Assembly (NCBI GenBank): GCA_022592445.1
Contig: JABYQR010000268.1
Span: 1-64,000, forward strand
Length of the DNA stretch: 64,000 nt
DNA from: Cytidiella melzeri
Lineage: Eukaryota > Basidiomycota > Agaricomycetes > Polyporales > Irpicaceae
Direction: 5' to 3'
In this document: positions 985 to 57,704 of the stretch, one piece after another
How positions within the stretch are numbered: the first letter of the stretch is position 1
Layout of the letters: each line of letters opens with the position of its first letter
The notes under the pieces: generated by a model
Databases searched by the model: none
What the model was told of the DNA's origin: nothing
What the model saw: only the letters and a program-made list of their open reading frames with translations
Translations under genes and position numbers: made by a program

Positions 985-2514
985 TTAGGGTGCAGTGAAG
1001 TTCACTAGTCCAAGACTCCCACTGAATTTAGACTGTTTCTGAAATGCCAATGACTTGGTCATAATATCAGCAACTTGGTCTTCAGTTGGGATGGCATAGA
1101 GTTCTGCCTTTCTGTCTTCATTTATGAACTCGCGAACATAGTGGTAACGAATGTCAATGTGCTTTGAACGAGCTTCAATCTTTGGATTCTTTGTGAAGAA
1201 GATGGCACCGTGGTTGTCGCAATAGATTGTAGTGGGACCTCTTGGTGACATATCCAATTCCGTAAGCATAGTACGTATCCAAGCACACTGCCTCGCTGTG
1301 TCGCATAATGCCATGTACTCTGCTTCCATTGAGGAGAGTGCTACGGTCTTCTGTTTCCTCGAGACCCATGACACTGCGCCTTTGGCCAGAAGGAATGCAT
1401 AGCCAGTAGTGGAGTGTCTATCGTCTTTGTTCTCAGCCCAGTCTGCGTCTGAGTACCCAACTAGTCCAGATTGGCTGCGTCCATCATACTTGATAGCATA
1501 TGACTGAGTACCAAGTAGATAACGGAGTATGTACTTCGCAGCATTCATATGGATCTGAGTGGGATTTGACATATACTGAGAAAGACGTATGACAGCATAT
1601 GAAATGTCGGGACGAGTACCAATCATAACATATATGAGTGTACCAATCAAGGCTTGATACGAACTCCTAAGCTCATGTTCCGCTGTATAGTCAGAATCTG
1701 CTTTACGAAGTTCTAGTCCAGATGGTAAAGGTGTACGGGCAGGATTAGCATTGATCATTTGAAAACGTTTAAGAGCATCTTCAATGTACGACCCTTGAAA
1801 AAGGTAAAGTGTACGCTCTTTACGATTTCTATGCACTTGCATGCCTAGGATTAGCTTTGCTTCTCCTAAGTCACGCATCTCATATTGATTCATGAGATTT
1901 GTTTTGAGTGCTTTGATCCCAGCTTTATCGTTGCCAATAGGAAATATATCATCAACATAGAGGATAAGCATCAAAGTCCCCCCTTGTTGGTGATATATGT
2001 ATACACCAGCATCGGACTCAATACGTTCAAAGCCTAAAGCTACAAGCGTATTGTGTATTTTGATATTCCAAGTTCGTGAAGCTTGTTTAAGTCCATAAAT
2101 GGCTTTCTTAAGCAAACAAACATGGTTCTCTTTTCCCTTCTCTACGAAACCTTCTGGTTGTTCCATATAGATTTCCTCATCCAGTTCGCCGTACAGGAAT
2201 GCTGTTTTTACGTCCAGTGCCTCGATTTCCCAATTCTCGAGTGCAGCTATAGCTAGTAGCGTGCGGATGGACTCAAAACGTGCGACTGGTGAGAAGGTTT
2301 CTTGATAATCGATTCCTTCAACTTGCGTGAAGCCTTTTGCTACAAGACGTGCTTTGTAACGACCGTCAGATTTGACTGCAAAGACCCATTTGCATTTGAC
2401 TGTTTTTTGTGAAGGGTCTGGTCGTTTAACAAGCTTCCAAGTGCCATTCTTCATTTGAGAGGCAATTTCGTCTTGTGCAGCAGCATACCATAAATCTCTA
2501 TTGTCACTTTTCAT
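985..2514 (-). pseudogene. Cop-G Pol: reverse transcriptase and RNase H
   Basis: 509 codons of copia-type RT (RVT_2) followed by Ty1/copia RNase H. Visible are the N-terminal WKLVKRP and RLVAKGFTQVEGIDYQETFSPVAR blocks, the first catalytic Asp in EALDVKTAFLYGELDEEIYM, the YVDD box, and RNase H motifs VGYSDADWAENKDDR and LSSMEAEYMAL. These convert the element RNA into cDNA in virus-like particles. The domain itself is open and carries the catalytic residues. It is cut off from integrase by an in-frame TAA at 2,518-2,520 (context TWK-stop-AMKSDN), so the full polyprotein cannot be made conventionally. The first codon listed is only the first Met after that stop. Confidence 0.9.
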
Positions 2515-2520
2515 CGCTTA

Positions 2521-3912
2521 TTTCCAAGTCTGAGGAAATTCGCTCATTGCGAACACCGTGACATATGAAGACAATATATGTTCTAGAGATTCAGATTGAC
2601 CCTCCGATTGACTCGGTAGATCAGATGGGAGATCAATGTTCAATTCCTCCGGTGTCGAAGGTAATCTAGAAGATCCAGGTACTGGATTAGACACTGTACG
2701 TCTTACTGGTCCAGGTACTGCTGGCTTCGTTGATTCTCTCCATTTAGCCGTTTGCTCCTTTTGTTGCTTTTCAACACCCTTATCGCGTGCAACTGCCTGT
2801 TCATTACGCTTCACTTCGTCGACTGGGTTAAAGCCAAGCGAAGGATTCTTTCCAGCAGTTGATCTCTTTGGTCGAGACGGTGGTGGCTGCTGTACTGGTT
2901 GACGTGCGTTTGAACGTGAAGTCTGAGGCAGTGCTTGCTGCGGTCTACTGACTGGTGTGCCGCGGGTATTACGACTGGGTGCTCTCGGCTGAGGTACAGG
3001 CTGCTGAGGAGGATTCTGCGGTTCTTGTTGTCTTGGATGATTATCATCTCTATCATCAAGCTCATTGTGACCAGCATCATCTTCCTCATCAACAAAAGGT
3101 AAATCGATATCATGTAGAGGTTGTGAATTATTGTCGGATTGGGGTTGTTTGGAAAGAGAAGTATCAAGATCGGTACAAAATGGGAAAGTATTCTCATCAA
3201 ACTTTACGTCGGTCGCTAAGACTATCCGTTGTTTATCCCAGAACCGGTAACCCTTAAGACCAGGTTCATATCCAACAAATATCATAGGAGCTGCCTTGGC
3301 AGACAGCTTGTCCTGACGACGTTCCTTGTGTATAAAGACATATGCGCGACATCCAAATACACGAAGGCGAGAAATATCAGGTTTTTCACCCAAAAATTTC
3401 TCAATAGGTGTGTGCCAATTAAGACGCTGACTTGGTAGGCGGTTATAAACGTATACGGCAGCCTTGCATGACAACTTCCAAAAGCCGTTAGAAAGACCAG
3501 TGTGGTGACGCATGGCTTCTGCTTTATAAACAATTGTCTGCTGCCATTGTTCCGCTCTACCATTCTGCTGATGTGAATAAGGCGTGGATGTCTGACGTTC
3601 TATACCATACTGATGTAGGTATTTAGTGAACTCATCATTCAAGAACTCTGTACCCCTATCACTGTGAAACTTCTTCATCTTTCGACCAGTCTGGTTTTCC
3701 GCCCATGTTTTCCATCTCTTAAACTCGGATAATGCTTGGTTTTTATGCTTGAGGTAACATTGTTCCCCCATACCAGTAGCATCGTCTAAGAGAGTCATGG
3801 CGTACTTATAACCATCAATTGAAAGCAAAGGAAATTCAACTAAGTCCGAGTGAACCAGTTCTAGTGGCTCCTTGGCTCGTGATAAAGAGGGTGGTTTTGG
3901 AAGTTGCTTTCC
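2521..3912 (-). pseudogene. Cop-G Pol: integrase
   Basis: Open frame between two stop codons (TGA 3,913-3,915 upstream, TAA 2,518-2,520 downstream), both in frame with the flanking Pol segments. It holds the copia integrase core with its three acidic positions: LVHSDLVEF, FHSDRGTEF and NGRAEQ. These are followed by the usual FGCRAYVFI and FVGYEPGLKGYRFWD region and a proline/glutamine-rich linker to RT. The role is insertion of cDNA into the host genome. The upstream TGA (after CHGCELG) replaces a residue expected to be Arg, consistent with CGA-to-TGA decay. Confidence 0.85.
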
Positions 3913-22412: not shown

Positions 22413-23237
22413 TTAGGTAGAATCTCCGTACGCTCGCCTGGACGTCGCGCAACCGCACATTTTCCTTTCCCCAAAGTTTTTAAAAGTTTAGTCCCCCCAG
22501 TTTACCAGTACATTGTATTGGCCTGGACCCTTGATCTTCATTCTCACGTCGTGGTGGTAGTGCCAAAAGACGTACGCATCCGTCGTAACGTACCCGAGTC
22601 TTTCTTTGAGGCTCGACAAGAACTGCGCAAACAAGGTCGTCCCCATCTCTACACAGAGAAGGACCTTGAAGCCATTGTCTCATACGTCTCACGCCGTCCT
22701 CACTACCATCCTCTTGGTACTAGACTCCCCCACTTCGACCACGAAAGGTTTGCTCGTGACAACGAGTCTATCAAGGAACGCACACGCATCGAACGTACGC
22801 AAACTCTTGCCGACCGTATTGAGAAACCGTCTCTCAAGGATCACATCTCCCGGGCACCCGCACCACCTCGACCGGACGCGCAGAAACCGGTGACACTCGA
22901 CTTCCATAAGTTCTCTATCAAGAACCAAGTTGGCATTCTCAAGCTGAAGATTGAGGCCACCAACAGACGCCTCAAGATCCTGATTGAGCTTACCCGTGAC
23001 CGCAACGACTCACAGGTCAAGTCAGTCCTGCTACTCAATGACAAGCTTCTGTACCTCACAGAGCATACGGAGGAAGTACTCTCCACCCGCACACTGGCAC
23101 AGCTCAAAGCACTGAATTGGGGCCTGCAGTCAGTAGGGCAGATCAACTTGACGCAATTACACAAGAGGTTGACAGAGGTCACGAGTCGAGTTGCATTTGT
23201 AGCAGACGGAGGATACTGTGAGAAACTCCCTTTGTAG
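22413..23237 (+). other. Gyp-D1 ORF1: conserved open frame without AUG
   Basis: Open from inside the LTR to TAG at 23,235-23,237, with no Met codon anywhere in frame. The protein is basic and helical (RQELRKQGRPHLYTEKDLEAIVSYVSRR, KPVTLDFHKFSIKNQVGILK, LKALNWGLQSVGQI). In 22,575-22,730 compared with Gyp-D2, 22 of 26 differing codons are synonymous, so the frame has been under protein-level selection. A related frame precedes gag in Gyp-A1 (YTEKELKAIASYVG). Function is unknown; an N-terminal Gag-like or accessory protein started at a non-AUG codon is an inference. The only ATG in any frame up to Gag (23,038) is a C-to-T change relative to D2. Confidence 0.7.
22415..22425 (+). promoter_or_regulatory. 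Gyp-D1 self-primer binding site
   Basis: AGGTAGAATCT, 2 nt inside the 5' LTR, complementary over 11 nt to the predicted mRNA 5' end. No tRNA-3'-end (TGG...) PBS is present. Tf1 of fission yeast is known to prime with the first 11 nt of its own mRNA. Confidence 0.7.
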
Positions 23238-32441: not shown

Positions 32442-32968
32442 CCCCTACTCCCTCACATCTCTGGACGTGCTGGAGGTTTTCTTCCCCTTTCTTCTAGGTC
32501 TTGTGCCTGTGCGTGGGCCCCTTTACAAATCCTCTAGAAATAGAGGTAGCCGGACCATAGGCTTTTAGTGGTAGTCATGTCTAGGATTTGCCTTGATGTG
32601 CACAACTTGAATCACCCTCTTGCCCAATGCTCCTAGAGCTGATCAGAGCAGGGGTTGGCATTATGCCAACATGATGAAAGTGTGCCTCCCCACAGGCGAT
32701 AGTGGAGTCTGGTGTCAGATGCTTGTTATAAGAGCTAGACAACAGGACTACAAGCCCATGAGTGCCTAGGCACGTAGACGGGTAACTTGTTCTGGCTGGA
32801 CTTAGAGTCAGTGAAATACTGATCCGCCAACCATTTGCTGCACTGGTGGAACCGTGACAGAGATCCTATTCACCACCGGACCTGGAGAGAGAGTCCAGGC
32901 TGATGCCGGCACTACCCACGCACACACAGGACCTCTTCTTGATGGAGATTTGTTTTGCACACCACTGA
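32442..32968 (+). other. Gyp-B leader, non-coding
   Basis: Matches 52,604-53,140. There is no ORF of note. The acceptor-like TTTCTTCTAG at about 32,480-32,489 could pair with the GTGAGT in the LTR as a leader intron that spans the primer site. Confidence 0.5.
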
Positions 32969-33478
32969 TGTCACGACCATGCACACTTTTTCCTTTCTTT
33001 TCCTTTTATTTTCGTTATCCTACCTTCTCAATTTCCTTATCTTATCTTATCGATGGTACATGGCTACTGCATGTGATCAAGTGCATGTGACAGACTGGTC
33101 ACATGATCATAGAAGGTGCTGGAACATTGTAGAACATCGCACCATAGCACACCATACATTCCCACGGCAGTGTTAGGAGTACAGACCCGGTACCAGGGGT
33201 CCTTGTTTGAGATGTATATAAACCCACCCTGTAGCTCCCTAAAGACCTCAGATTCTACCTCCTGGTCTTTAGGTGACGTCCACCTTGTACCTAGTCCTTC
33301 ACATTACTAATATAACCTGGTCTTTAGCTCATTGTCAGCTGATCCCTCGTCGTCGTGTCTCCACTCCTCCTCATCACCTATACTCCTGTCGTCATCGTCC
33401 ACGCGAGTTTGCTCGTCGTTCCTCTCCCCCTTGTCGTCACTCCCTCGCTCTTCATAGAGTTGGGTTGTGTTCCTGACA
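32969..33478 (+). repeat. Gyp-D2 5' LTR
   Basis: TGTCACGACC ... TTCCTGACA; TATATAAA at 33,215-33,222. It is 17 bp longer than the D1 LTR. Confidence 0.95.
33250..33260 (+). promoter_or_regulatory. Gyp-D2 predicted mRNA 5' end
   Basis: AGATTCTACCT, 35 nt from the first base of the TATA box, complementary to 33,481-33,491. Confidence 0.65.
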
Positions 33479-34303
33479 TTAGGTAGAATCTCTGTACGCT
33501 CGCCTGGACGTCGCGCAATCGCACACATCCTTTTCCCCAAAGTTTTAAAAAGTTTAGTCCCCCCGGTTTACCAGTACGTTGTATTGGCCCGGACCTTTGA
33601 TCTTACGTCTCACTTCGTGGTTGTAGTGCCTAAGGACATACGCATTCGTCGCCGTGTACCCGAGTCCTTCTTTGAAGCTCGCCGAGAACTACGTGAGCAA
33701 GGTCGTCCTCGTCTCTACACAGAAAAAGACCTTGAAGCTATCGTCTCCTACGTCTCACGTCGTCCCCACTATCACCCTCTCGGCACCCGACTCCCAGCCT
33801 TTGACCACGAAAAGTTTGCTCGTGACAACGAGTCTATTAAGGAACGTGTACGCACGGAGCGCGCACAAACACTCTCCGACCGCATTGAGAAACCATCTCT
33901 CAAGGATCGTATCGCTCGGGCACCTGCACCCCCTCGACCGGACGCGCAAAAACCTGTGACGCTTGACTTCCACAAATTCTCAATCAAGGATCAAGTCGGT
34001 ATCCTCAAGCCGAAGATTGAAGCCACTACTAAACGCCTCAAGATCCTCATCGAACTTACTCGCGACCGCAACGACTCACAGGTAAAGTCAGTTTTGCTAC
34101 TCAACGACAAGCTTCTGTACCTCACAGAGCATACGGAGGAAGTACTCTCCACCCGCACGCCGGCCCAGCTCAAAGCATTGAACTGGGGTCTGCAGTCAGT
34201 AGGACAGATCAACTTCACGCAATTACGCAAGAGGTTGACAGAAGTCACGAGTCGAGTTGCATTCGTAGCAGACGGAGGATATTTTGAGAAACTCCCTTTG
34301 TAG
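33479..34303 (+). other. Gyp-D2 ORF1: conserved open frame in an AUG-free region
   Basis: About 275 codons open to TAG (34,301-34,303) followed at once by a second TAG. No ATG occurs in any frame between the predicted mRNA start (33,250) and the Gag ATG (34,721). The sequence is colinear with D1 ORF1 (RRELREQGRPRLYTEKDLEAIVSYV, KPVTLDFHKFSIKDQVGILKPKI). The protein is lysine/arginine-rich with helical segments and no transmembrane region. It is not a domain I can name. See the D1 entry for the evidence of protein-level selection. Confidence 0.7.
33481..33491 (+). promoter_or_regulatory. Gyp-D2 self-primer binding site
   Basis: AGGTAGAATCT, 2 nt inside the 5' LTR, the same sequence and position as in D1. 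Confidence 0.7.
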
Positions 34304-34306
34304 TAG

Positions 34307-35781
34307 ATAGCAATCATTGAGTGCGATAATCATTTCCACGTCTTTGATCCCGACGATCTTCAGGACTGTTACGATAACGAAGAGGACCACGCATATATTG
34401 AAATCTGCGAACAACAGCCGTGTCCAAATCGAAATCAAAAGTTTGTAGTATCCCGTCATTTCAGAGAAGGACAACGATACCGTGGATACGTAGCTTGCGA
34501 TAACAGTCAAATACCGTTGATTGTCGGAGTTCCTGAAGAAGTCGAGATCAATACCAGTTTAGTTGTACCGGAAAACCCACCGGCTCCACCAGACGATACC
34601 CTCATTATTCCTGATCCCACTGCTACCCCTGTTCCCATCATTCCCGAAACCATACCGGAAATCCCACCGGTAACTCCTGAAACGCCCACCGTCGTCCCCA
34701 TCAATTCCGCACCTGTCACGATGACAACACCCGCAGTCGATCCTGCCTTGATTGCAGCCATTGTAGCTGCAGTTACACAAGCAATGCCAAGACCGCAAGT
34801 CACGGTCAACAATAACGACACCAAGCCCGATAGATACAAGGGCGAACATGGCCGTGACTTAGAACGGTTCTTGTCACAATGCGAGGCTTACTGGGTGACC
34901 GCCAGTATTGCCGATGAAAGAACCAAGGTCCTGACAGCAATCTACCGGTTGTCAGAAAAGGCCGCCCAATGGGCAATACCGGTCACAGATCATATGGCTG
35001 ACCATAACGGTAACTTACCGGCCAACCTCGATACCTGGGCCAAGTTTAAAACTGAGCTCAAGAAGTACTTCGGCGATGCAACGCCCGAAGATACTGCTAT
35101 CCGTGAGTTGGAGAAGCTCTGTGGAGCTGAGAAGAAGGAGAAGAACGCGCGTGACGTAGGAACATATGTCACAGACTTCCAATCCTACGTGGGTCGCATC
35201 TCCGGATTAAGCGACAAGGACAAGGAGATCCGCTTCATCAAGGGCCTCCCAGAGTACATCTATGGTAGATTGGCAACTGCCGAGGCTCCGCCAACGAACT
35301 ATCAGGGGTGGATTGATAGGTCTCTGAAAATGGCGGCTGCGTATGCCCGCATCAGAGAAACAACGGAGAAGAAAATTCCGTCTGTTCCCTCGTCGACCAC
35401 GTCGAGACCTACTCAGTCCCAGCCCCGGTTTACTCCGGTCCTCGCGCTTCCAACGGTCCGGTTCCTATGGAGGTTGACGCCTCCAAGATGCAACAAGGTC
35501 GGCGGTGTTATAACTGCCAGGAACTTACAACGGATCCCAGTCACATTGCACGCACGTGCACCAAGCCTGCAGTTCCTCGTCCACCTCCTCGTGGACCACG
35601 TGTAGCTGCTACCAATGGGGAGGCATCTTCTTCTCGGGCCGAAGAAAAGAAGCCTGAGAAGGAAGAAGCGTCGAACTCGTCGGGAGTATCGGAAGTGACA
35701 CTCAAGGCCGTACTAGGAGAACTGGAGAAGTTGAGGGCGGAGAACGCCGACCTCAAAAAGAGATTGGAGGAGGGTTTTTGA
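34307..35781 (+). pseudogene. Gyp-D2 Gag
   Basis: In frame with ORF1 beyond the UAG pair, and open without a stop from 34,307. CYDNEEDHAYIEICEQQPCPN comes first, then the first ATG of the transcript at 34,721 (MTTPAVDPALIA). The gag domain is as in D1. A 1-nt deletion near 35,443 (where D1 reads LAPRPSNGP) moves the zinc knuckle CYNCQELTTDPSHIARTC and the tail into another frame (35,467-35,781). The tail contains the coiled-coil-like ELEKLRAENADLKKRLEE and ends at the frameshift site. Confidence 0.85.
35772..35781 (+). promoter_or_regulatory. Gyp-D2 gag-pol -1 frameshift site
   Basis: G GGT TTT (35,772-35,778) then stop TGA. The -1 frame reads GFLIRAVIRAAQ into protease. The stop differs from D1 (TAA) but the heptamer is unchanged. 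Confidence 0.8.
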
Positions 35782-38402
35782 TTCGGGCCGTGATTCGAGC
35801 TGCGCAAGCACGCGCCCCACGTTTACCATGTACTAATAGATTTTCCATACTCGCATCTGATGTACTAGAGACTGGTTCTGAATCCGAACATTTTCACGTA
35901 CCTATCACAGTCTCAGGAGTGCGGAGATCTAAAGAAGTCGCAGCTATGATTGATAGTGGAGCCTCGACACTATTCATTCATAAACGGTTTGTTCGAGAGC
36001 ATCGTATTAGGACCCGGAAGTTGAAACAACCCATTCCGGTGTACAACATAGACGGAACCCCAAATCGAGATGGGGCTATTGATGAGGTTGCCATTCTCAA
36101 TATGAGGATAGGAGACCACGAGGAAAGGACCATTTCACGGTCACTGATATTGGGCCAGAAGACGTGATCATAGGAATTGATTGGTTGCGGTATCACAACC
36201 CCACCATTGATTGGTACGAAGGTATCATCAGGATGGATGGATGTCCTGATGCATGTAAACCCAGAGAAAGGGTTGAGGAAGCGAAGGAGGTTGCAGCTAA
36301 GAGAACAGCTGAACCTAAACGGAAGAAGAGGACCCCGGGATTACGGAAAGTTGTGGAACAACTTCCGTATTTGCCGGTGGATACGGAGGAAACCGAAGAA
36401 GACCTCGAAGAGACCACGGAAGGTTCAGGAAGTTTGGATGGGGCCGAATCGCCGAAGTTACAGGCACAGGCCACTACTCAGCTCGGTGGAAAAGGAACTC
36501 CCGACGCATTGTACGCACACGTCCGACACCCATGGTACAAGAAGGCGAACGTTTGTTCACTCTGGCAGGGTATACGTATTCTAGTGAACTAGCGGAGGTT
36601 GAGAACCGGGTGAAACCGGTGAAAACCTTTGAGGAGATGGTACCTGAACAATATCGTCAACATGCTCACATCTTCTCTGAAACGGAATCTCAACGACTTC
36701 CAGAACACAAGTCGTACGACCATGCAATTGAGTTGATTCCAGAAGCAAAAGGATTCCACGCAAAAGTCTACCCGCTTTCACACCCTGAGCAAGAAGAGCT
36801 TGACAAGTTTATCCGAGAAAACCTAGAAAAGGGGTATATTCGACCGTCGAAGTCCCCAATGGCGTCACCCTTCTTCTTTGTAAAGAAAAAGGATGGAAAG
36901 TTACGCCCAGTACAGGATTACCGGAAGTTGAACGAAGTCACTATCAAGAACAGGTATCCATTGCCGTTGATCTCCAAACTTATGGATAGACTGCGAGGCG
37001 CTAGGTTCTTTACCAAGCTAGATGTCAGATGGGGATATAACAATGTCCGTATCAAAGAAGGTGATGAACACAAGGCAGCGTTTGTAACCAACCGTGGACT
37101 TTTCGAACCAACCGTCATGTTCTTCGGACTGACAAACTCTCCGGCTACGTTCCAGAACATGATGAATGATATTTTTGCCGACCTCATTGCCGAAGGCAAA
37201 GTCACGGTCTATTTAGACGATATCCTTATCTATTCCAAGGAAATATCCGAGCACCGCGAGGTGGTACATGAAGTTCTGAGACGGCTCAGGCAACACGACC
37301 TATTCTTGAAACCTGAGAAATGCGAGTTTGAGAGGTCAGAAACGGAGTACCTTGGCGTCATCATTGGCCACAATCAGTTACGTATGGATCCTGTCAAGGT
37401 AAAGGCAGTGGCTGAATGGCCCGTACCGCAGAACGTCTCCGACATCCGCCGATTCCGTGGGTTTGCAAACTTCTACCGAAGGTTCATCAGGGACTTCGGG
37501 AAGATATGTAAACCCCTAGACCGTCTCACAGGTAAGGTCCCTTGGAAATGGGGTCCTGAAGAACAGTCAGCGTTCGATGAACTCCGCCGACGATTTGTGG
37601 AAGCACCAGTATTGGCAATGTGGAGTTTTGATAGACCCACACGTTTGGAAACGGATGCATCCGGATATGCAATGGGAGGAGTGTTGGAACAACAAGCCGA
37701 AGACGGCACGTGGCACCCAGTAGCCTATCGGTCTGAAGGCATGACTGAACCGAACGAAACTATGAGATCTACGACCGAGAACTTATGGCAATTGTGCGAG
37801 CTCTTGAAGACTGGCGTCATTATTTGGAAGGGCTACCAGAGAAATTCCCTATTTTCTCTGACCACAAGAATCTCGAGTATTGGAAGACCGCTCGCAATTT
37901 GACACGTCGTCAAGCGCGTTGGTCATTGTTCCTCTCACGTTTCAACTTTGAGATCATTCCAAAGCCCGGGAAATCTATGGGAAAGTCGGATTCCATGTCA
38001 CGATTGGGCCAACATGAGGTCAAAGACGAAGAAGACAATCTGTCACAAGTAGTCTTAGCGCCTGAGGTTTTCCGAGCTGCCGCTTCTCAACGTGGGCAAG
38101 CTAGTGTACAGCCAGACAGAGACCTGTTGAAACGTATCCGTGACTGTTCTCTTCGAGAAACCGAGGTGGCAGAAGCACTTGCCAAAGTCAAGAAACTCGG
38201 ACCTCGTCTTCTTAGCCGGGGACTCGAAGAGTGGAACAACGAGAATGGACTGTTATTGTTCCGGGGAAAAGTTTATGTTCCTAAAGATGACGAAATCCGA
38301 AAAGAACTAGTTCGGAGACATCACGACTTACCCGCCGCTGGACATCCGGGCAGGTACAAAACGCTGGAACTACTTTCTCGGAACTACTGGTGGCCAGCAT
38401 GA
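35782..38402 (+). pseudogene. Gyp-D2 Pol: protease, RT, RNase H, integrase zinc finger
   Basis: Protease AMIDSGAST (35,778-36,167 frame) is followed by a 1-nt deletion near 36,133. A linker frame (to ~36,592) is followed by another 1-nt loss near 36,500. RT-RH is open 36,532-37,740 with [21 protein letters not shown] and LETDASGYAMGG. A 2-nt loss near 37,750 precedes ELMAIVRALEDWRHYLEG (37,785-38,402). The zinc finger begins with RRHHDLPAAGHPGRYK. A 1-nt loss at ~38,397 (GGTGGCCAGC against GGTGGCCCAGC in D1) ends the frame. Active-site residues are all present. Confidence 0.9.
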
Positions 38403-39727
38403 CACGCTTTGTCAATGACTATGTAGACACGTGTGATACTTGTCAAAGAACCAAGACATACCCCGCCCCACCACGTGGTCCACTCAATCCACTAGATCCG
38501 CCCAATGCTCCATGGGAAAGCGTTACCACGGACTTCATTGTCAAGTTACCGCCATGTAAAGGATACGATTCTATCACGGTTGTAGTTGATCGGACAACAG
38601 CGCAGGTGCATTGTTATCCATCACGAGAAAGCATGAAAACTCCCGAACACGTGCAGGACTATATTGCAAACGTGTTTCGACTCCATGGTGTACCTCGTCA
38701 GATGATCTCAGACCGTGGATCGGTATTCGCGTCCAAGTTTCTCCGTGCTATCTACGATGCACTCGGAGTAAAGTCGTCTATGTCCACTGCGTACCACCCT
38801 CAGACAGACGGTAAAACAGAACGTATGAACCAAGAGATAGAACAATATCTCCGAGTATTCTGTTCCTTCCGACAGGATGACTGGGTAGACTGGTTGCCAA
38901 TTGCGGAGTTTGCGCTCAATAGCCGAGTACACTCGTCCACCGGGAAGGCCCCCTTTGAACTGATCTATGGGTATCTACCAGAGTTCCAGGTGCCTTTGAA
39001 TCCGGTATCAAACGTTCCTGCAGCAGACGAGCATCTTCGAGCACTTCGAGAAGCCCAAGAAGATGCCAAAGCTGCGCTACAACTCACGGCAGAACGCATG
39101 AAGCGATTCTATGATCACGGAGTTACAAAGGCGCCGCAGTTTAAAGTTGGCGATAAGGTTTACGTGGAGCGCGAGAAGCATCCAAAGGAACAGCCGGTGG
39201 CAAAACTAGCACCGAAACGAGATGGTCCTTATGAAGTCTTGGAAAAGATTGGGGACCTGAATTATCGGGTCAAACTCACCATTCGAGACAAGCGACACCC
39301 CGTGTTCCATGTAGATAGGCTACGACCGGCCAAAACGGCAAGTTTGGTTCCCAACCGGGAATTTCCTGAACCGGATCCGATCGTGGTTGACGAAGAAGAG
39401 GAGTACGAAGTAGAACAGATCCTTGATTCTAGAATCTTTGGACGGAAGAAAGAGTTTCAGTACCGCGTCAAGTGGAAAGGATACCCAGATTCAGAAAACT
39501 CCTGGAAACCCGCAACCAACGTTACTCATGCTGATGAAGCAGTTAAAGATTTCCACAGACGGCACCCAGGAGCTCCACGACCAATCGCTACATCTCTATT
39601 CTTGGCGATGAATTTCCGACCAATCAACGAGAATTTTGAGAAACTACCTTCAGAAACTCTACGACGCGTATCCTTGTGGGAAGACGGAAAAGACTCAACT
39701 CCTGCCTTCCGGAGAAAAGGCCTTTAG
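38390..39727 (+). pseudogene. Gyp-D2 Pol: integrase core and chromodomain
   Basis: 445 open codons. CDTCQRTK completes the zinc finger; the core has TTDFIVKLPP, ISDRGSVF and TDGKTERMNQE. A GPY/F-like region (KLAPKRDGPYEVLEKI) and a chromodomain (EVEQILDSRIFGRKKEFQYR ... VKWKGYPDSENSW) follow, then a conserved tail to RRKGL. All three catalytic acidic residues are intact. It is called a pseudogene only because it is out of frame with the rest of Pol. Confidence 0.9.
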
Positions 39728-39738
39728 GAGGGGGGTAA

Positions 39739-40248
39739 TGTCACGACCATGCACACTTTTTCCTTTCTTTTCCTTTTATTTTCGTTATCCTACCTTCTCA
39801 ATTTCCTTATCTTATCTTATCAATGGTACATGGCTACTGCATGTGATCAAGTGCATGTGACAGACTGGTCACATGATCATAGAAGATGCTGGAACATTGT
39901 AGAACATCGCACCATAGCACACCATACATTCCCACGGCAGTGTTAGGAGTACAGACCCGGTACCAGGGGTCCTTGTTTGAGATGTATATAAACCCACCCT
40001 GTAGCTCCCTAAAGACCTCAGATTCTACCTCCTGGTCTTTAGGTGACGTCCACCTTGTACCTAGTCCTTCACATTACTAATATAACCTGGTCTTTAGCTC
40101 ATTGTCAGCTGATCCCTCGTCGTCGTGTCTCCACTCCTCCTCATCACCTATACTCCTGTCGTCATCGTCCACGCGAGTTCGCTCGTCGTTCCTTCCCCCC
40201 TTGTCGTCACTCCCTCGCTCTTCATAGAGTTGGGTTGTGTTCCTGACA
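39739..40248 (+). repeat. Gyp-D2 3' LTR
   Basis: 510 bp after the purine tract AGGAGGGGGGTAA. It is followed directly by truncated LTR-F. Confidence 0.95.
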
Positions 40249-40379
40249 TGTGTCCCGCCGGGCGTCGACTCGCTGGACATTTTGCCTCCGCAGACGGAAG
40301 TATTCTGCCACCCCGTTTCCTCGCTCTCGCGTTTGGGTTTAGGACATAGAAGGAAAGGTTTAGGAGAGGGTCTTTAGGG

Positions 40380-43591: not shown

Positions 43592-46500
43592 TCAAGCCTG
43601 AACATGAAGGAGTTCATTGAAGTGCTTGAGTTTTTCGAGAGGTAGTGCTTTAGTAAGAGTATCAGCACGTTGATCGGCAGAAGGTACGTGGTGCACAGTG
43701 ATGTACCCTTTAGTTACACGATCGCTGATAAAGTTCTTGCGAATGTTAAAGTGTTTAGTACGTTGAGAGTGTTGTTCCTCGGGGGAACGAACAATCGCAA
43801 GAGTTGACGCACTGTCGGTATATAGTTTGACAGGGTCCATAGTGCAGTTAAGTATTTCATCTATGAGGCTCTTCAAATAGATGGCCTCTGTAGACGCATG
43901 AGCAAGTGCGTACAGTTCGGCTTCGGTGACCGATAAAGTTACAAGTGAACCGCGCTTACTTGACCAAGAGATAAGCGAGTCGTTGTATGTGAAAGTATAG
44001 CCCATTATTGGTTTATTGCCGTACGTAGTCATACCATCAGAGTCGGCATAACCTACGAGTGAAGTAGAAGTAGGGTTGGCTTGGTTTCCTAGGACAAGCC
44101 AGTAGTCGCATGTTCCCTTGAGGTAAAGGTAACACTGTTTAGCTGCAGCGTAGTGTTCCTTAGCAGGGTCAGATAAGTATCGTGCTAGTTGACCAGTGCA
44201 ATAAGCAATGTCTGGTCGAGTACTGTCGGCGACGTAGCGTAAGCCACCAACAAGAGACATGTAGTGTGTAATGGCGTCAGCGTCCTGACGTGGTTCGGTC
44301 ACAGCACGGGGGGCTAAGTTGTGCTCGTGTACCATTGGTGTACGGCGTGAATGTTCGTGGTCAAAGTTGTATCGCTTAAGTATGTTCAGGATATAATCCC
44401 TTTGACGAAGCTTGATAATGCCTGCGGCTTTATCATAAGCAACTTCCATGCCAAGCATCCAGTGGATAGTTCCACCATTAGTAAGTTCGACATGTTGTCT
44501 GAGTGCGATCTCAAATTTTTCGGCAACAGTAGTAGTGATAGTGCCAAGAGTAATGTCATCGACATGGACAGCAAGTAGAAGTATAAGTTTATCACCTCGA
44601 TAGAGGTAGAAGACTGCATTGTCGAATTCACAACGCTTCAGTCCAAGTGCGAAGAGTATGTCGCATAGTACTTTGTACCAACGACGTCCGGCTTGCTTAA
44701 GGCCGTAGATAGTCTTCCGAAGTTTAAGTACCCAACCAGGTGGCAGGTTTGGAAGTAAGTCACCAGGAGGTGGACGAAGATAAAGGTCTTCATCGTCGTG
44801 GATGTTACCGTATAAGTATGCGGACTTGATATCGAGCTGAGTAATCTCGAAGTGTAGTGAAGCCGCGAGAGTAAGTACGAATCGTAGTGAACTCATACGC
44901 GCAACAGGTGCGAATAAGTCATTTGAGTAGTAATCAATGCCGTCACGCTGGGAGTATCCTTGCGCAACAAGTCTTGACTTGAGTTTAGTGACTTTGCCGT
45001 GTTCGTATTTTGTTTTGTAGACAAAGCGCGAACCAGTGATGTTCGCATTTGGCGGCGGGATACAGTATTCCCAAGTGCCAAGTTGTTCGAGGGTATCAAC
45101 CTCAGTTTTCATCGACTTGAGCCAGTCAATTTTGAGTGGGTGGTTAAGTACGTCTTTGTAAGTAACTGGATCACCGACGTCTTCAGCGTAGTATGCGTTG
45201 AATTCAGTCAAGTAGAAGGCAATGTTTGTATCGACTTCATCATAGTTTAAGCCTCGAGCTTTGCGCGAAGGCTTAGGCTCTCTAGTAGTACGCCTAGGAC
45301 CAGAAGGGTCAGGCTCGTCGATGTCCATGGGTTCAACATGAGGATTCTCCTCGAGTTGAAGTTGTTTCTCAAGAGTAGGTTTTTCGATATTTGGTTCTTT
45401 CTCCCCTTCAATTTGTGCCGTAGAGTCAACAAATTGCAAGTTTCGTTCGACGCCTACGCGTGTTCCGAAGTAAACGTAGTGGCCTTTGGAATATTCAGCA
45501 AAGCCTATCCAAACGGCGCGCTTGCCTTTTGGCGCGAGTTTATTGGTTCGGTATTCGTCGTATACGATACACGGTTGACCAAACTTTTGAAGTGCATCAA
45601 GGTTCGCTTCAGTACCATAGCGTTTAAAGTAAGGAGTTTTGTATTGAAGAGGAGCACGAGGAGTGCGATTATAGAGATAAACCGCATGAAGCGCAGCGTA
45701 CCACCATAACCGGTTTGGTAAGGCAGCCGTATGCAAGTTTACACGAACCAAGTTCATAATAGTCTGGTGTGTGCGCTCAGCAACACCATTTTGTGCAGGA
45801 GTATCGTGCACAGTAAGCCGGGGTATAGTACCTTGTGACTTCAAGTAGTTTGTCATATTTGCACCAGTGAATACGCCATCGTTGTCAGATTGAAGAATCT
45901 TGACGCGAATATTGTATTGCGTAAGAAGCTCAGTAGAGAAGATAACCCATTGAGTGAAGGCATCATCTTTTGTTTTTAATGGCGCAAGTGTTAACCATCG
46001 AGTTGAGTCGTCGACGATAGTCAACCAGTACAGATAATGACCAGTAATCGACGCAGTGGGTAGTGGCCCAAAGATGTTGATATGAAAGTGATCACCGAAG
46101 GAAGTAGCCAACGGCGAAGTACGAGCTTTGGGGACTGGAGTACGATGAATATTATTCAAGATACAGTCCTCGCACGGAGTTTCTGTGCGATCAGTGATAT
46201 GAGTAGTAATGATAAGTTTGGACGTTTCAAGTAGTTTGTTTATCTGGAAATAACTGATGTGACCGAGTTTTTTATGAAGTTCAAGCATTGTTATACCAGA
46301 CTTATGCACGCTTGCTAAAGAAGTCACGCGAGTAGAGTTGAGTGAATACAAATCATGTATTTTTCGTATCACAGCTACACAAGACGCGTTCGAGTCATAT
46401 ATAGTACAAGTATTTGAAAAGAAAGTGAAGCGATAGTCAGCGTCCAATTTTGAAACACTGATAAGCGTGAAGGGTAGTTGTGAGTTGTAGTAGACATTCT

Positions 46501-47740
46501 TTAGCATAAGTTGATTATGCGTACCATTTTCCTGTTCAACCTCCAGTACCATGTCGCCAGCGAGTTTGAGACTTATTTGCTCTGAGTTGGCGACAGTAAG
46601 TAAAATAGTTGGTACAGAGTGAACGTTGAAAAGTAAGTCACGATATGGTGTACAGTGTATAGTAGCACCAGTATCGATGACATGAACGCACTTGTCAGAT
46701 GACGAAGTTGCGAACAGTGGAAGTAAAGTAGAAGAAATGGTACGAGTACTTACGTGCATCGTCACGTCCGAGTTAGAAAGAGACTTCACCCACGCGCTTG
46801 GGTGAGGGTTCTCGAGGACTTCTTCGTCCGAGTCAGCAGCGGCAGTGACGTTGGCCATGAAGCCAGTAGCAGTGGAAGAGCCGGCAGCGGCGGACTCTTT
46901 CTTCTTGCCTTGAGCGGCGGCGGCAGTGGATTTGCGAGTGATGCCCTTCTTTTTCATCGCAGCTTTGGACTTCTCAGTCCAGGGCAGAGGGCAAGTCGGC
47001 GTCATGTGGCCAGGCTGACCACAGTTGAAGCAGTTGCCCTGACCAGAAGTGGAGGGCTTGCTCGACGAGTAGGGGGCTGCAGCCGCGCGAGCAGTAGTGG
47101 TGGTTTTGGTCGAGCGTTCGACCGCGGCCTTGCCCTTGGCGTGCGAAGCCGAAGGAGCGTGAGCTTTGTCCTTAGGGACGAAAGTGGTAGGCCCCTTGGA
47201 CTCGGAAGTCTTTGGGGGGTGCGTGAGTCGCCAGTTGGTGAACTCGCGACGAAGCTCAGCGATGAGCGCGTTAGGCCTGTACCGGAACTTCTCTCCAGCC
47301 GGAGTAGAAGAACGCACGCCGACCTCGTAGTTCTGACGTGTGGCGGCGTAGGCAGGAGGGATAATCCCGACGATGGCAGCGTAGAAGATATGGTCGGGGA
47401 TGTCGACACCAGCAGCGATAAGCTTGCTGCGGATATTGGTGGCGTCATCGAGCAGCTTGTCCATCTCGTAGATAGGACGACGAAGGTGGAACAACTGGTA
47501 AATTTCGTTTGCGTCAGACACAGTGGTCTTCGGATCGTAACGTTCACGCAGCTTGTCCATGAGTACGTGGGGCTTGTACTCATTGAGGTAGTTGGCCATG
47601 ACCGAGTCAGAAATATGACCGGTCAGGACGTTGAAGACAGCCCGCGTAACCTCTTGAGGAACGTCAGGCCACCTCGGAGTGTGTGAAACTCCAGTATAGT
47701 GGACATAGCGGTCTCGACGCGGAACTTCCACATCGGCCAA
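43592..47740 (-). CDS. Cop-E2 Gag(C-term)-Pol polyprotein, 1,382 open codons
   Basis: One frame covers: gag C-terminal part from VPQEVTRAVF (about 28); zinc knuckle CFNCGQPGHMTPTC (237-250); protease VIDTGAT (354-360); pre-integrase HKKLGHISY (489-497); integrase with FHINIFGP (N555 where Asp is expected), SDND (D619) and NGVAERTHQ (E655, a DX35E spacing). RT follows with LDIKSAYLYG (969-978) and HVDD (1,059-1,062), then RNase H YADSDG (1,231-1,236) and TEAELYALAHAS (1,272-1,283). Cop-E1 keeps the Asp (HIDIFGP), so N555 is a GAC-to-AAC change at 46,076-46,078. The gag N-terminus lies in another frame (47,623-48,426). The listed start is only the first codon after a stop. Confidence 0.92.
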   Translation of the reverse strand: MADVEVPRRDRYVHYTGVSHTPRWPDVPQEVTRAVFNVLTGHISDSVMANYLNEYKPHVLMDKLRERYDPKTTVSDANEIYQLFHLRRPIYEMDKLLDDATNIRSKLIAAGVDIPDHIFYAAIVGIIPPAYAATRQNYEVGVRSSTPAGEKFRYRPNALIAELRREFTNWRLTHPPKTSESKGPTTFVPKDKAHAPSASHAKGKAAVERSTKTTTTARAAAAPYSSSKPSTSGQGNCFNCGQPGHMTPTCPLPWTEKSKAAMKKKGITRKSTAAAAQGKKKESAAAGSSTATGFMANVTAAADSDEEVLENPHPSAWVKSLSNSDVTMHVSTRTISSTLLPLFATSSSDKCVHVIDTGATIHCTPYRDLLFNVHSVPTILLTVANSEQISLKLAGDMVLEVEQENGTHNQLMLKNVYYNSQLPFTLISVSKLDADYRFTFFSNTCTIYDSNASCVAVIRKIHDLYSLNSTRVTSLASVHKSGITMLELHKKLGHISYFQINKLLETSKLIITTHITDRTETPCEDCILNNIHRTPVPKARTSPLATSFGDHFHINIFGPLPTASITGHYLYWLTIVDDSTRWLTLAPLKTKDDAFTQWVIFSTELLTQYNIRVKILQSDNDGVFTGANMTNYLKSQGTIPRLTVHDTPAQNGVAERTHQTIMNLVRVNLHTAALPNRLWWYAALHAVYLYNRTPRAPLQYKTPYFKRYGTEANLDALQKFGQPCIVYDEYRTNKLAPKGKRAVWIGFAEYSKGHYVYFGTRVGVERNLQFVDSTAQIEGEKEPNIEKPTLEKQLQLEENPHVEPMDIDEPDPSGPRRTTREPKPSRKARGLNYDEVDTNIAFYLTEFNAYYAEDVGDPVTYKDVLNHPLKIDWLKSMKTEVDTLEQLGTWEYCIPPPNANITGSRFVYKTKYEHGKVTKLKSRLVAQGYSQRDGIDYYSNDLFAPVARMSSLRFVLTLAASLHFEITQLDIKSAYLYGNIHDDEDLYLRPPPGDLLPNLPPGWVLKLRKTIYGLKQAGRRWYKVLCDILFALGLKRCEFDNAVFYLYRGDKLILLLAVHVDDITLGTITTTVAEKFEIALRQHVELTNGGTIHWMLGMEVAYDKAAGIIKLRQRDYILNILKRYNFDHEHSRRTPMVHEHNLAPRAVTEPRQDADAITHYMSLVGGLRYVADSTRPDIAYCTGQLARYLSDPAKEHYAAAKQCYLYLKGTCDYWLVLGNQANPTSTSLVGYADSDGMTTYGNKPIMGYTFTYNDSLISWSSKRGSLVTLSVTEAELYALAHASTEAIYLKSLIDEILNCTMDPVKLYTDSASTLAIVRSPEEQHSQRTKHFNIRKNFISDRVTKGYITVHHVPSADQRADTLTKALPLEKLKHFNELLHVQA

Positions 47741-48426
47741 GTCTCAGCCCCAGTAAGTTTGCCAACATCAGAGAAGGCTTTGTTAATGTCGCTGAGCGAC
47801 ATAGTGAAGTTGTTGTCGTGGCCCGGTGGCACAGACAGAAGTTGTGACACTTCGCGTGTCGACCTAGTGCCTATGGAGCTAGGCGGAGGAGGAGGCGGCG
47901 AGCCACCAGGAGAGCTACCCGGAGGAGGGGGAGTCGTCGGACGGCGAGCAGGACGTTTCTCACGTCGTCGACGAGGCCTCTCATCCTCATCCATACGGTC
48001 GTCATCACTGTCATCGTCTCCTCCATGAGGGTGACGACGACAATCATCATCGCGAAGAGTATCGAAGGGGGTGCGACGGCGATCAGCTGGGGGAGCAGAG
48101 ACATGGCGAGCACCTGGGATCGCCTCACGATCCTCAGAGCTGGAAGAGTGGTTGTCGTTGTGACTGGGTTGGGGTTCGACGTCAGGGACGTTAGAGTTGG
48201 ATGGTCCAGCTGAGGGAGCATCGGTTTTTGTGATAGTTGTGGCAGACATTGAGGGAGGAGGTGTAGTAGGAGCAGGAGAAGGAGTAGGAGTGAAGATGGG
48301 AGTTGTCCTGCGAGTGGTGGTTGTTCTTTGGCGGGGTTGAGCTCTAGTACCCCTGAGGAAGTTGGTTTGGTGACGCTCTCTAGTGGAGCGACAAAGTTGA
48401 GCTTGATCAGCAAGATCAGAGCTCAT
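47664..48426 (-). pseudogene. Cop-E2 Gag, N-terminal part (frameshifted)
   Basis: Starts MSSDLADQAQLC. The region is Ser/Thr/Pro-rich, with acidic (DDDSDDDRMDEDE) and basic (RPRRRREKRPARR) patches, followed by MSLSDINKAFSDVGKLTGAE and WKFRVETAMSTILEFHTLRGG. At about 47,662 one G is missing (GAACGTCAGG; the Cop-E1 empty site reads GAACGGTCAGG). The frame therefore runs off into about a dozen foreign residues instead of VPQEVTR. Gag is the particle protein, so this break should be fatal unless it is a sequencing error. Confidence 0.85.
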
Positions 48427-53949: not shown

Positions 53950-56900
53950 TCATCGCCTCGATGAACTAAGACCAGGGACTCTACCATCTGCCCACTCCAG
54001 GTCAGATGCAATAGCTTCGGTGATGTTCTCCAACGGTTTCCAAGGAATGGAGTTGAAGAGTGCTTTGGGCAATTTCTGAGGTGCGTTGGTATGTCTGGCG
54101 TGGAACTCTGCAATGCTCTCTTTCGCATTGGTCAGATTTACTGCAGGTTCCCACGTTACATTGCCTTCTCCATAGCCTTTCCATTTGACTAGGTACTGCA
54201 TCTGCTTCCGATAGATCCGACTGTCTAGGATCTTCTCACTTCATAGACTTGTTGATCATCTACTATGATCGGTGCTGGTGGTTCTGGTATGAGGCCGTTT
54301 ACTTCGTTTCCTCGATACGGAGATAGCCGTTCAACGTTGATGTTGTTGTGAATACAATATCCGGATTTGAGTTTGATCCAATATGTATGTTCACCGGTTT
54401 CCTGAAGAACTGTGAATGAACCGAGCTGTCTAGGCCCTAGCTTGTCAGACTGCTGATGTATTTTGACGTTCTTGGAAGACAACCACACGAGGTCCCCTTC
54501 CTTGAAGACTGGAGTAGTTCTGCGGGTGTATGCAGAAGCTTCGGCCATCTTTTCCTTAGATAGACGCGAGGCAGCTTCGGCTTCTGCCCGAACCTGTCTA
54601 ATTTTTTCTAGACGTGCATCTAGATTCGGCATTTGGCTGTGACGTCCGACTGGTATGGTGAAATCTGGTAGGTACCCGTACATGACTTCAAAGGGAGAGT
54701 GCTGCGTAGATGAGTTGACACGAGAGTTGATGGCGAATTCAGCCACTGGGATGTATTCTGCCCAATCATCTTGTTGTTGGTCAACAAAGAGTCGTAGAAT
54801 CTTTTCTACCTCTTGATTTGTTCTTTCCGTTTGACCATTGGCCTGAGGGTGGTAGGCGGTAGTCATGGCGCCAGTGATGCCTAGCCGTTTGTACAACGCT
54901 TGCATGACACGAGCTGCAAACTGGGGTCCTCTATCGGATATAAACTGTCGGGGAATGCCGTGGAGCCTGAACACCTCTCTGATGTGAAGGTCGGCTATAC
55001 CGTCTGCTGTGACAGTAGACTGAGTTGGAATTACATGTGTTTGCTTGCTGTACAAGTCTGTGTACACGGCAATCATGTCAAAACCTTTACTGCGTGGGAG
55101 TGGTCCGACTAAGTCTACACCAACCACCTGCCAAGGTCCGTCTGGTACTTCGATAGGCTGTATTGGGGCAACCAGGTGCTGTGCTGATTTGGTTTGCTGA
55201 CATTTGTCACATCCGAGGACGTATTGTTCTACAAATGATGCCATACGAGGCCACCAATAGTGCCGTGTTACTAGTTCCAGGGTTGCGTGTTTGCCAGGAT
55301 GTCCTGCTGGTAGTGCATCGTGGCATCGACGTACAATCTCCTTTCGGACTTCTCGATCTTTAAGAATGTACAGCTTTCCTTTGTAGTACACCAGTCCGCT
55401 GTCTTCTTCCCACTCTAGTCCACCATCTGTCAACTTCCGGGGTCCGTCCTTCTTTAGCTTGGCTAATCCCTGAACCACCTCAGCTTCTCGAAGGCTGATG
55501 TCTCTGATTCGAGCTTCCAATGGGTCTGTTTCTAGAGTACTTGAGGCAGCTATGGTTTGGAAGTATTCGGGTTTCAGCACAACTTGTTCTTTGTTGTCTG
55601 ATGCATCTAGCACTTCCAAGGTTCTAACTCTGGACAGCGGGTCACCTTGAGTAAGGGTCTTTCCGGGTTTGTGGGTCAACACGAAATCAAACCGGCTAAG
55701 GTATAAGGACCACCGAGCTTGTCGTCTAGCCAGGTCCTGAGCGGTACGCCAGTACTGCAGATTCTGATGATCTGTGATGATCTCGAAGGGCGCGGGTAAT
55801 CCTTCTAGATAGTGACGCCAATCTTCAAGAGCTCTGATGATAGCGAGCATTTCTCGATCATAGATCTCGTAGTTCCGTTCGGCTTCGGCCATAGACTGAG
55901 ACCGAAACGCTACAGGGTGCCATTGTCCATCCTCTAGTTTCTGCAATAGAACTCCTCCAGTTTCAAAGCCAGACACATCAACTTCAATACGTGTGGGACG
56001 ATCAGGTTCCCATGTGACTAGAATAGGTTCCTGAGTGAACGCATCTTTGAGCATCTGAAAGGCGTTCTGTTGTGCTTCTCCCCACTTCCAAGGTTGGTCT
56101 TTCTTGGTGAGATCATGCAGGGGACGAGTATGCCGTGCAAAGTCCTTGATGAAACGTCGGTAGAAGTTGGCAAATCCAATGAAACCGCGTACATCACGGA
56201 GGTTCTGTGGTACCGGCCAGTTGGTGATAGCTTCTATTTTACCCGAGTCCATACTGATCTTTCCGTTACCGATGATTAGACCTAAGTACTCGACTTGTGA
56301 CTGTTCAAATTCGCATTTCTCGGGGCGAAGGTACAGATCATTGGCTTCAAGTCTTGCTAGTACTTCATGGACGAGTTTACAATGTTCCGTGATGTCTGAG
56401 CTGAAGATGAGGATATCATCCAGGTACACAGAGACCTTTCCGTCCGCAATGAGATCAGCAAAGATGGAGTTCATCATTGCTTGAAACGTGGCTGGAGAAT
56501 TGGTCATGCCAAACAACATCACCTTGGGCTCGAACAGCCCTCGGTTTGTCACAAATGCAACCTTCCATTCGTCATTTTCTTTGATCCGAATGTTATGGTA
56601 ACCCCATCGTACATCAAACTTAGTGAAGATTTTGGCTTGACGAAGTCGATTGGTAATGTCTGATACCAAAGGGAGTGGGTAGCGGTTTTTGATTGTGATG
56701 TCATTCAACCGTCGATAATCCTGAACAAGCCAAAGCTTGTCATCCTTCTTCTTTACGAAGAATATCGGTGAGGCCATGGGCAACTTGGATGGGACAATAT
56801 ATCCTTTCGCTAGGTTTTCCTCAATAAACTTGTCTAACTCCGCTTGTTCATTCGGAGACATGGGGTAGACTTTGGATATGAACATCTTCGGGGTCTCTGT

Positions 56901-57704
56901 TAGATCAATCGTGTGATCCCAGGGTTGGTGCTCTGGGAGGCGCTGTGATGCTTCTTCGGAAAAGACTTTCTGGTGTCTACGGTATTCTTCTGGAACCATC
57001 TGTTCGAACGTCTGTTGGTCTTTGGATTGATGGGCCTTAGCCGCAATGTCTGTTGAGTACGTATAGCTAGCACAGGACCAAAGCTCTTCTTTGGTGTCCT
57101 GAATGATACCGGCTCTGAGCCAGGCTCGTCTCTGCTTCCGATTAGCTGTGATAGACTGGAAGGGTTTGAAATTTTCTTCGGCTTCCAGTTCCATTTCTCT
57201 GGTAGCCCAATTGATCTTGGGGTTTGCTTTGCGAAGCCAGGGTAGGCCTAGAATGCAATCTTCTGGTCCGATGTCTGTGACCAAAAATGTTGCGTTTTCT
57301 TTGATAGCCCCAACTTGTAGTTCAAGCTCTGCTCTGTGTGTGATACGTCCTCCTTGATTTAGAGTCCCATCGATGTTATGGAGTGGGATCTGTCTTTCTA
57401 AGGGGACCGAACGTACTCAGTGCCGATTGACAAAGTCTTGACTCAGGAATAAAGCGGTGGCTCCTGAGTCAATCATGGCTTTGATGCCTTGTTCTCTAAA
57501 CACTCCTTTAAGCGTGATAGGAACTCGGAAGTGCATGGTAAGCGGGTCTATTTCGGGTACTATGCAAGACGACAAGGTTTCAAAGTAGTTATACATGTCG
57601 TTAAATAAAACTGAAGACTGCAAATCAGGCTGCTGCGCGGGGCGGGTATTTACTACAGGGGAGCTAAAAACTGTGTCCGTGGGGGAATCATCATTGTCCT
57701 CCAC
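53950..57704 (-). pseudogene. Gyp-A1 Pol polyprotein
   Basis: 57,417-57,704 holds protease [20 protein letters not shown], then TGA (CGA in Gyp-A2). 54,225-57,284 is 1,019 open codons: [36 protein letters not shown] and YLDDILIFS; RNase H IEVDVSGFETGG; zinc finger GHPGKHATLELVTRHYWWPR ... CDKCQQTK; integrase VGVDLVGPLP, ISDRGPQFAA and NGQTERTNQEVE. A 1-nt loss near 54,240 (GAAGTGAG against GAAGTTGAG in Gyp-A2) puts the chromodomain (MQYLVKWKGYGEGNVTWEP) in the frame 53,950-54,201. Apart from these two lesions Pol is complete, the best preserved gypsy Pol in the window. Confidence 0.92.

Follow-up and report, generated by a model that had tools for sequence, protein, structure and literature searches.

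Gyp-D2, a retrotransposon copy in the stretch of Cytidiella melzeri DNA analysed here (64,000 nt of contig JABYQR010000268.1, hereafter the window), raises the question of how a conserved reading frame upstream of Gag is translated when the predicted RNA offers it no AUG, and why the 1.47 kb before Gag is free of this triplet. An earlier note had proposed that this frame, ORF1, starts at a non-AUG codon, and that leaky scanning then delivers ribosomes to Gag. Comparison of 81 copies of the family, and of a second family in the same genome, points to another answer, and it is very probable from these sequences that Gyp-D is a Ty3/Gypsy chromovirus in which splicing controls the choice of the first AUG.

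Layout of Gyp-D2 and Sampling of Copies

The features of Gyp-D2, and the corresponding intron of Gyp-D1, are as follows (a slash marks a splice boundary):

32966..33478, + strand: 5' LTR (TG...CA); blastn pairs 32,968-33,479 with 39,738-40,249 at 99.0% identity
33250..33260, + strand: predicted mRNA 5' end AGATTCTACCT, the putative self-priming strand, complementary to 33,481-33,491
33250..33573, + strand: exon 1 in the splicing model, ending ...GTTTACCA; ATG-free in 65/81 copies
33481..33491, + strand: primer-binding site AGGTAGAATCT, directly 3' of the LTR, recognised by its complementarity to AGATTCTACCT
33574..33626, + strand: putative 53-nt intron, GTACGT...TGTAG, with conserved splice signals and a branch-like CTNAY motif
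33627..34306, + strand: ORF1, 225 codons; proposed start A33573 + TG33627-33628; tandem stops at 34,301-34,306
34313..34720, + strand: pre-Gag, AUG-free but conserved in the Gag frame and containing cysteines; AUU at 34,316 is a candidate start
34721..35605, + strand: Gag, starting at the first AUG of the unspliced RNA
36319..37902, + strand: reverse transcriptase and RNase H (Pfam RVT_1, RT_RNaseH_2)
38291..39727, + strand: integrase with chromodomain (Pfam rve, Chromo, SH3_Tf2-1)
39738..40249, + strand: 3' LTR, paired with the 5' LTR by blastn
22508..22560, + strand: homologous 53-nt intron of Gyp-D1 (ACCA/GTACAT...GTAG/TGCC)

Pfam matches to RVT_1, rve and Chromo at 36,319-39,724 of the window place the element among the Ty3/Gypsy chromoviruses, and the complementarity of its RNA 5' end to the site directly 3' of the 5' LTR (11 nt, kept in 76/81 copies) is that of the Tf1/sushi type, as is the combination of reverse transcriptase, integrase, Tf2-1-like SH3 domain and chromodomain. 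Tf1-type self-priming uses the RNA's own cleaved 5' end. The second family has a 10-nt pair of another sequence, ATCTCGACCT / AGGTCGAGAT, and of its six pieces all five that extend to the start keep it complementary. Because this pairing is kept, and because the Tf1-type layout uses the very 5' end of the RNA, the predicted mRNA start at 33,250 is well founded. Tf1 has a single ORF, whereas Gyp-D has an extra, intron-bearing ORF upstream of Gag. The Gag frame of Gyp-D2 is 432 codons from stop to stop and that of many other copies 484-485. Elsewhere in the window there are Copia-type elements at 985-3912 and 43592-47743, and another Gypsy element with reverse transcriptase and integrase at 54225-57416, all on the minus strand.

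The family D alignment comprises D2 and 80 further copies (D1 included) taken from 151 ORF1 matches; full-length matches were favoured and several with stops were left out, so that the sample leans to better copies.

Avoidance of ATG Upstream of Gag

Between the predicted RNA start and the Gag ATG of D2 (33,250-34,720), ATG is indeed absent from all 1,471 nt, while CAT occurs 24 times. The earlier estimate that about 20 ATG should be expected was fair, since composition alone gives about 18, and 2,000 dinucleotide shuffles of the D2 leader gave a mean of 12.6 (s.d. 2.9, minimum 4); the Gag-Pol part of D2 carries 17 ATG/kb. The single ATG reported for D1 was likewise found at 23,038 (CAATGAC, against CAACGAC in D2), upstream of the D1 Gag ATG at 23,622. 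Across the 81 copies the count over this interval is zero in 37, with a median of 1 and a maximum of 8, while CAT is present 17-33 times per copy, and the Gag AUG is strictly the first on the unspliced RNA in 36/81. The 44 copies with at least one ATG are mostly those without a near relative. When distance to the nearest sampled relative is taken as a proxy for age, the ATG count rises with it: the 34 copies with a relative of at least 98.5% identity average 0.21 (28 are ATG-free), intermediate classes of relatedness average 1.39 (18 copies) and 2.12 (17 copies), and the 12 copies without a 90% relative average 3.92, with none ATG-free. More than half of the ATGs in the copies (64/115) occupy positions where the majority reads ACG, and these are CpG decay. 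Young copies are therefore mostly ATG-free, and decay introduces the triplet. No ACG flanked by a -3 purine and a +4 G occurs in the leader of D2; in Gag-Pol the frequency is 3.8 per kb, and strong near-cognate codons may be avoided in the leader as well.

The purge operates through codon choice and does not extend past the Gag AUG. Among the NAY codons of ORF1 (those for Asp, Asn, His and Tyr), 25/586 (4.3%) end in T when the next letter is G, but 431/1,800 (23.9%) before other letters; the difference is larger still in pre-Gag (14/432, 3.2%, against 933/1,326, 70.4%), while in Gag T-ending codons are frequent before G (424/768, 55.2%) as well as before other letters (477/1,305, 36.6%). That AUGs are purged, as the earlier note held, is thus borne out both by the youngest copies and by a codon choice that avoids out-of-frame ATG. 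Whether the missing ATGs could be a side effect of composition or mutation bias was considered, and this is highly improbable. Chance is not rejected when the synonymous codons of ORF1 itself are shuffled (mean 0.91 ATG; 34% of shuffles have none), and ACG, which decays to ATG, is common; but the own-codon shuffle is a weaker test than the NAY-before-G comparison, and recoding ORF1 with pol codon usage gives a mean of 2.69 ATG and none in only 3%. A bias of this kind would also have to spare CAT, which is not depleted, and to end its junction-specific effect at the Gag AUG, and decay creates ATG rather than removing it.

ORF1 as a Conserved Protein

The earlier reading of ORF1 as constrained at the protein level holds, with pN/pS of 0.08, far from 1. 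Pooling the copies against D2, pN/pS over 33,641-34,300 is 0.084 in the ORF1 frame and 1.66 and 4.07 in the other two, compared with 0.16 in Gag (other frames 1.27 and 1.93); all these comparisons share D2 and so are not independent. As had been stated, 22 of the 26 codons that differ between 22,575-22,730 of D1 and 33,641-33,796 of D2 do so synonymously, and variation is mainly synonymous from the codon at 33,629 onward. The frame is intact in 73/81 copies. The claim that one open frame fills most of the span held only in part: ORF1 is conserved, but it ends in the tandem stops at 34,301-34,306, after which a separate conserved stretch follows in the Gag frame. ORF1 and Gag do share a frame in D2, with two TAG between them, which would allow a single protein to be made by stop readthrough or frameshifting; this is scarcely credible, however, given that the tandem stops are kept in 79/81 copies and that, in some, a +1 insertion after the stops alters the relative frame of ORF1 and Gag.

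Eight protein relatives of ORF1 were found (42-58% identical), none of which contains a Met beyond residue 1, and DNA for these relatives was not confirmed in the viral or genome contig collections searched. A Pfam search returned no family at E <= 1 and the best match among PDB sequences was only E 0.46. The predicted model is helical (mean pLDDT 63), and a fold search with it against PDB and viral models yielded nothing at E <= 0.001.

A Putative Intron That Splits the ORF1 Start Codon

Exactly at the onset of ORF1 conservation lies a stretch reading ACCA/GTACGT...TAG/TGCC (33,574-33,626), which appears to be a 53-nt intron of fungal type whose removal would create the ORF1 start codon. The donor ACCAGTACGT is present in 76/81 copies, the acceptor TAG/TGC in 81/81 and a CTNAY motif in all 81 D introns; divergence is 1.3% over the first 18 nt, 17.9% over the next 16 and 7.3% over the last 19. 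A GT..AG pair that would yield A/TG is kept in 80/81 copies, and the predicted product reads CC-AUG-CC in 77/81. A genome-wide pattern search for donor plus acceptor found 305 places, against none for the backward control. The pattern TAGTGCCNAARGAY gave 354 matches (control 7), compared with 8 (control 5) when its codon has other first letters and 4 (control 11) with other third letters.

Only two GT sites of the D2 leader fit GTRNGY in at least 60 of the 81 copies, namely 33,574 (78 copies) and 33,494 (66 copies), the latter being a second donor-like site, GTACGC, directly 3' of the primer-binding site. The end of exon 1 and the first 18 intron bases (33540-33591) are the least divergent leader blocks measured (3.9% and 1.3%), and AAAAGTTTA.TCC is found again in the second family; the segment is possibly an element for packaging or splicing control.

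When the genome was searched by exact match for the spliced junction, no family D copy without the intron turned up. Among twelve protein matches to Gag are two Irpex rosettiformis gene models. In both, the Val that aligns, by eye, to the start region of D2 is preceded by a Met at a distance of seven residues, and in these models the start may thus be at another place; from there to the Gag Met, model P0022 runs for 336 residues with no Met, and P0021 has one.

The Second Family and Its Intron-less Copies

A second family in the genome, whose ORF1 and Gag are 33% and 22% identical to those of D2 (one copy compared, L090), shows the same arrangement. In five copies an intron of 73-74 nt splits the same codon, again A/TG before Pro-Lys, although in one of the family's copies (L092) the codons after the split start are damaged. 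ATG counts in L089-L094 are 1, 1, 0, 0, 1 and 0 over 1.12-1.21 kb, with CAT at 14-17, and the one leader ATG of L089 is the fused start codon itself: this copy reads GACGATGCC, from which the intron is gone exactly. The junction GTTTGAC[GA]ATGCC occurs at 7 places (8 matches, of which one has no exon-1 motif; the control gave 0). Five of the seven were read (L089 and L095-L098), and all lack exactly the GT..AG stretch, with differing flanks. The deletion has only one placement, because the bases at its two edges differ. Such exact loss is as expected of reverse-transcribed spliced RNA, copies of this kind being found in the second family only. Several independent losses are likely, though the intron-less copies could also descend from one loss spread by recombination. 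By eye, the upstream part of intron-less L096 is like L093 and its downstream part like L089/L090, a mosaic that suggests template switching.

These data also bear on the non-AUG start envisaged in the earlier note, for which GUG at 33,626 is the best candidate on the unspliced RNA, with leaky scanning onward to Gag. This codon was favoured at first, and its conservation is striking: GTG is present with a purine at -3 in 81/81 D copies, and the 354 genome matches retain it. The same letters, however, are a 3' splice site followed by the TG of a split AUG. Initiation at GUG predicts neither a conserved donor nor a variable intron middle, nor the exact loss of the intron, and second-family copies L090 and L091 have a pyrimidine at -3. 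The candidate was dropped on account of the upstream GTACGT donor and the intron-less copies, and is now considered improbable. The start of ORF1 is better explained by splicing: removal of the intron would join A to TG at this point, and the evidence points to what had been named as the refutation of the earlier proposal, a spliced upstream exon supplying the AUG. An invariant near-cognate codon can therefore be a splice junction and not a start, which calls for caution.

A Proposed Splicing-Controlled Choice of First AUG

According to the splicing model, the full-length RNA would start at 33,250 and carry no AUG before Gag, so that 40S subunits would scan 1.47 kb and initiate there. A fraction of the RNA would lose the 53-nt intron, joining A to UG in good context (ACCAUGCC); on this spliced RNA, ORF1, whatever its role might be, would be the first cistron, closed by its tandem stops. 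The purge of AUGs from all frames of the leader, of ORF1 and of pre-Gag would follow from their cost, since any one of them would reduce Gag output from the unspliced RNA. If the ORF1 AUG is supplied only by splicing, the first AUG of the unspliced RNA is that of Gag, and the purge protects its translation; the part of the earlier proposal in which scanning reaches Gag as the first AUG thus fits the purge. Retention of the intron in most DNA copies fits the unspliced RNA as genome. The weak points of the model are the length of the scan, 1.47 kb, and the conservation of pre-Gag, for which it does not account. It is just conceivable that a large intron instead skips ORF1 to reach Gag, and some YAG sites in 34,464-34,562 are conserved.

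Unspliced retroviral RNA is both genome and Gag message, while spliced env and accessory mRNAs make other proteins, and the proposed division of labour in Gyp-D is alike; the 53-nt intron, however, lies upstream of Gag and would merely close a gap within a start codon. Plant Ogre elements, like Gyp-D, have an additional ORF1 before Gag as well as an intron, which in Ogre lies elsewhere. A comparable arrangement is that of the polycistronic RNA of rice tungro bacilliform virus (RTBV), in which, according to published accounts (PMC5902531, PMC3542737), scanning ribosomes reach a downstream ORF across ORFs devoid of internal AUG over about 900 nt, and a separate mRNA is made by splicing. Gyp-D likewise has an AUG-free ORF upstream of its main AUG and, in the model, an mRNA made by splicing. 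In RTBV, AUU is the start of ORF I, and the splice links a uORF in the leader with a distal ORF; from its sequence, Gyp-D does not appear to use a non-AUG codon to open its first ORF on that same RNA, and the start codon itself is apparently made by the splice.

The switch proposed here would be a simple one, in which a tiny start-codon intron decides which of two proteins is made and the unspliced form is the genome. Selection against AUGs across 1.5 kb that is also protein-coding offers a powerful natural experiment on whether the scanning model holds at long range, and the second family with its intron-less copies makes the switch testable inside one genome.

Pre-Gag and Its Candidate Start

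Between ORF1 and Gag, constraint is seen in the Gag frame, with pN/pS of 0.28 over 34,310-34,540 (other frames 0.85 and 0.91) and 0.60 over 34,541-34,720 (other frames 0.78 and 0.76). The stretch contains five cysteines, each retained in at least 79/81 copies, and no AUG. One inserted base puts it out of the ORF1 frame in some copies while it stays in that of Gag, and pre-Gag is therefore independent of ORF1. A splice-made AUG was rejected for it, since the only AGTG of D2 after 34,290 (at 34,320) would give Met-Arg-stop, and no other route came to light. An intron over the tandem stops (34,300-34,363) was likewise rejected, its acceptor CAG being lost in many copies (YAG in 63/81).

An N-terminally extended Gag of murine leukaemia virus that starts at CUG is described in PMC3542737, and the stretch upstream, coding, conserved and in frame with the Gag AUG, invites comparison with pre-Gag. 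ORF1 differs in that it is a distinct protein, closed by stops of its own and apparently opened by a splice-made AUG. The glyco-Gag-like start that the earlier note had suggested is not supported for ORF1 but is possible for pre-Gag. The best candidate for such a start is the AUU at 34,316, and that Gag also initiates there, giving an extended product positioned like glyco-Gag, is a tentative reading with somewhat less than an even chance. It would account for constraint in the Gag frame only over 34,310-34,540, and for the finding that 33 of 36 pre-Gag deletions of at least 25 nt relative to D2, many shared by descent, are multiples of three. The ATT, preceded by A at -3 and followed by G at +4, is present in 80/81 copies, whereas several Ile codons further on are variable, and it is in the Gag frame in 71/78 copies, including those with the +1 insertion. 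The preceding ATC at 34,313 is invariant too (81/81), however, and so ATT is not singled out; the frame from ATT to the Gag ATG is open in only 57/78 copies (31/36 of the ATG-free ones), with a TGA at 34,430 in 12, and pre-Gag is, by eye, largely absent from second-family copies. A three-way switch, combining a spliced A/UG for ORF1, 1.1-1.5 kb of AUG-free unspliced RNA leading to Gag, and AUU for a minor Cys-extended Gag, is less likely again, though if true, splicing efficiency would set both the ORF1:Gag ratio and the proportion of RNA serving as mRNA relative to genome.
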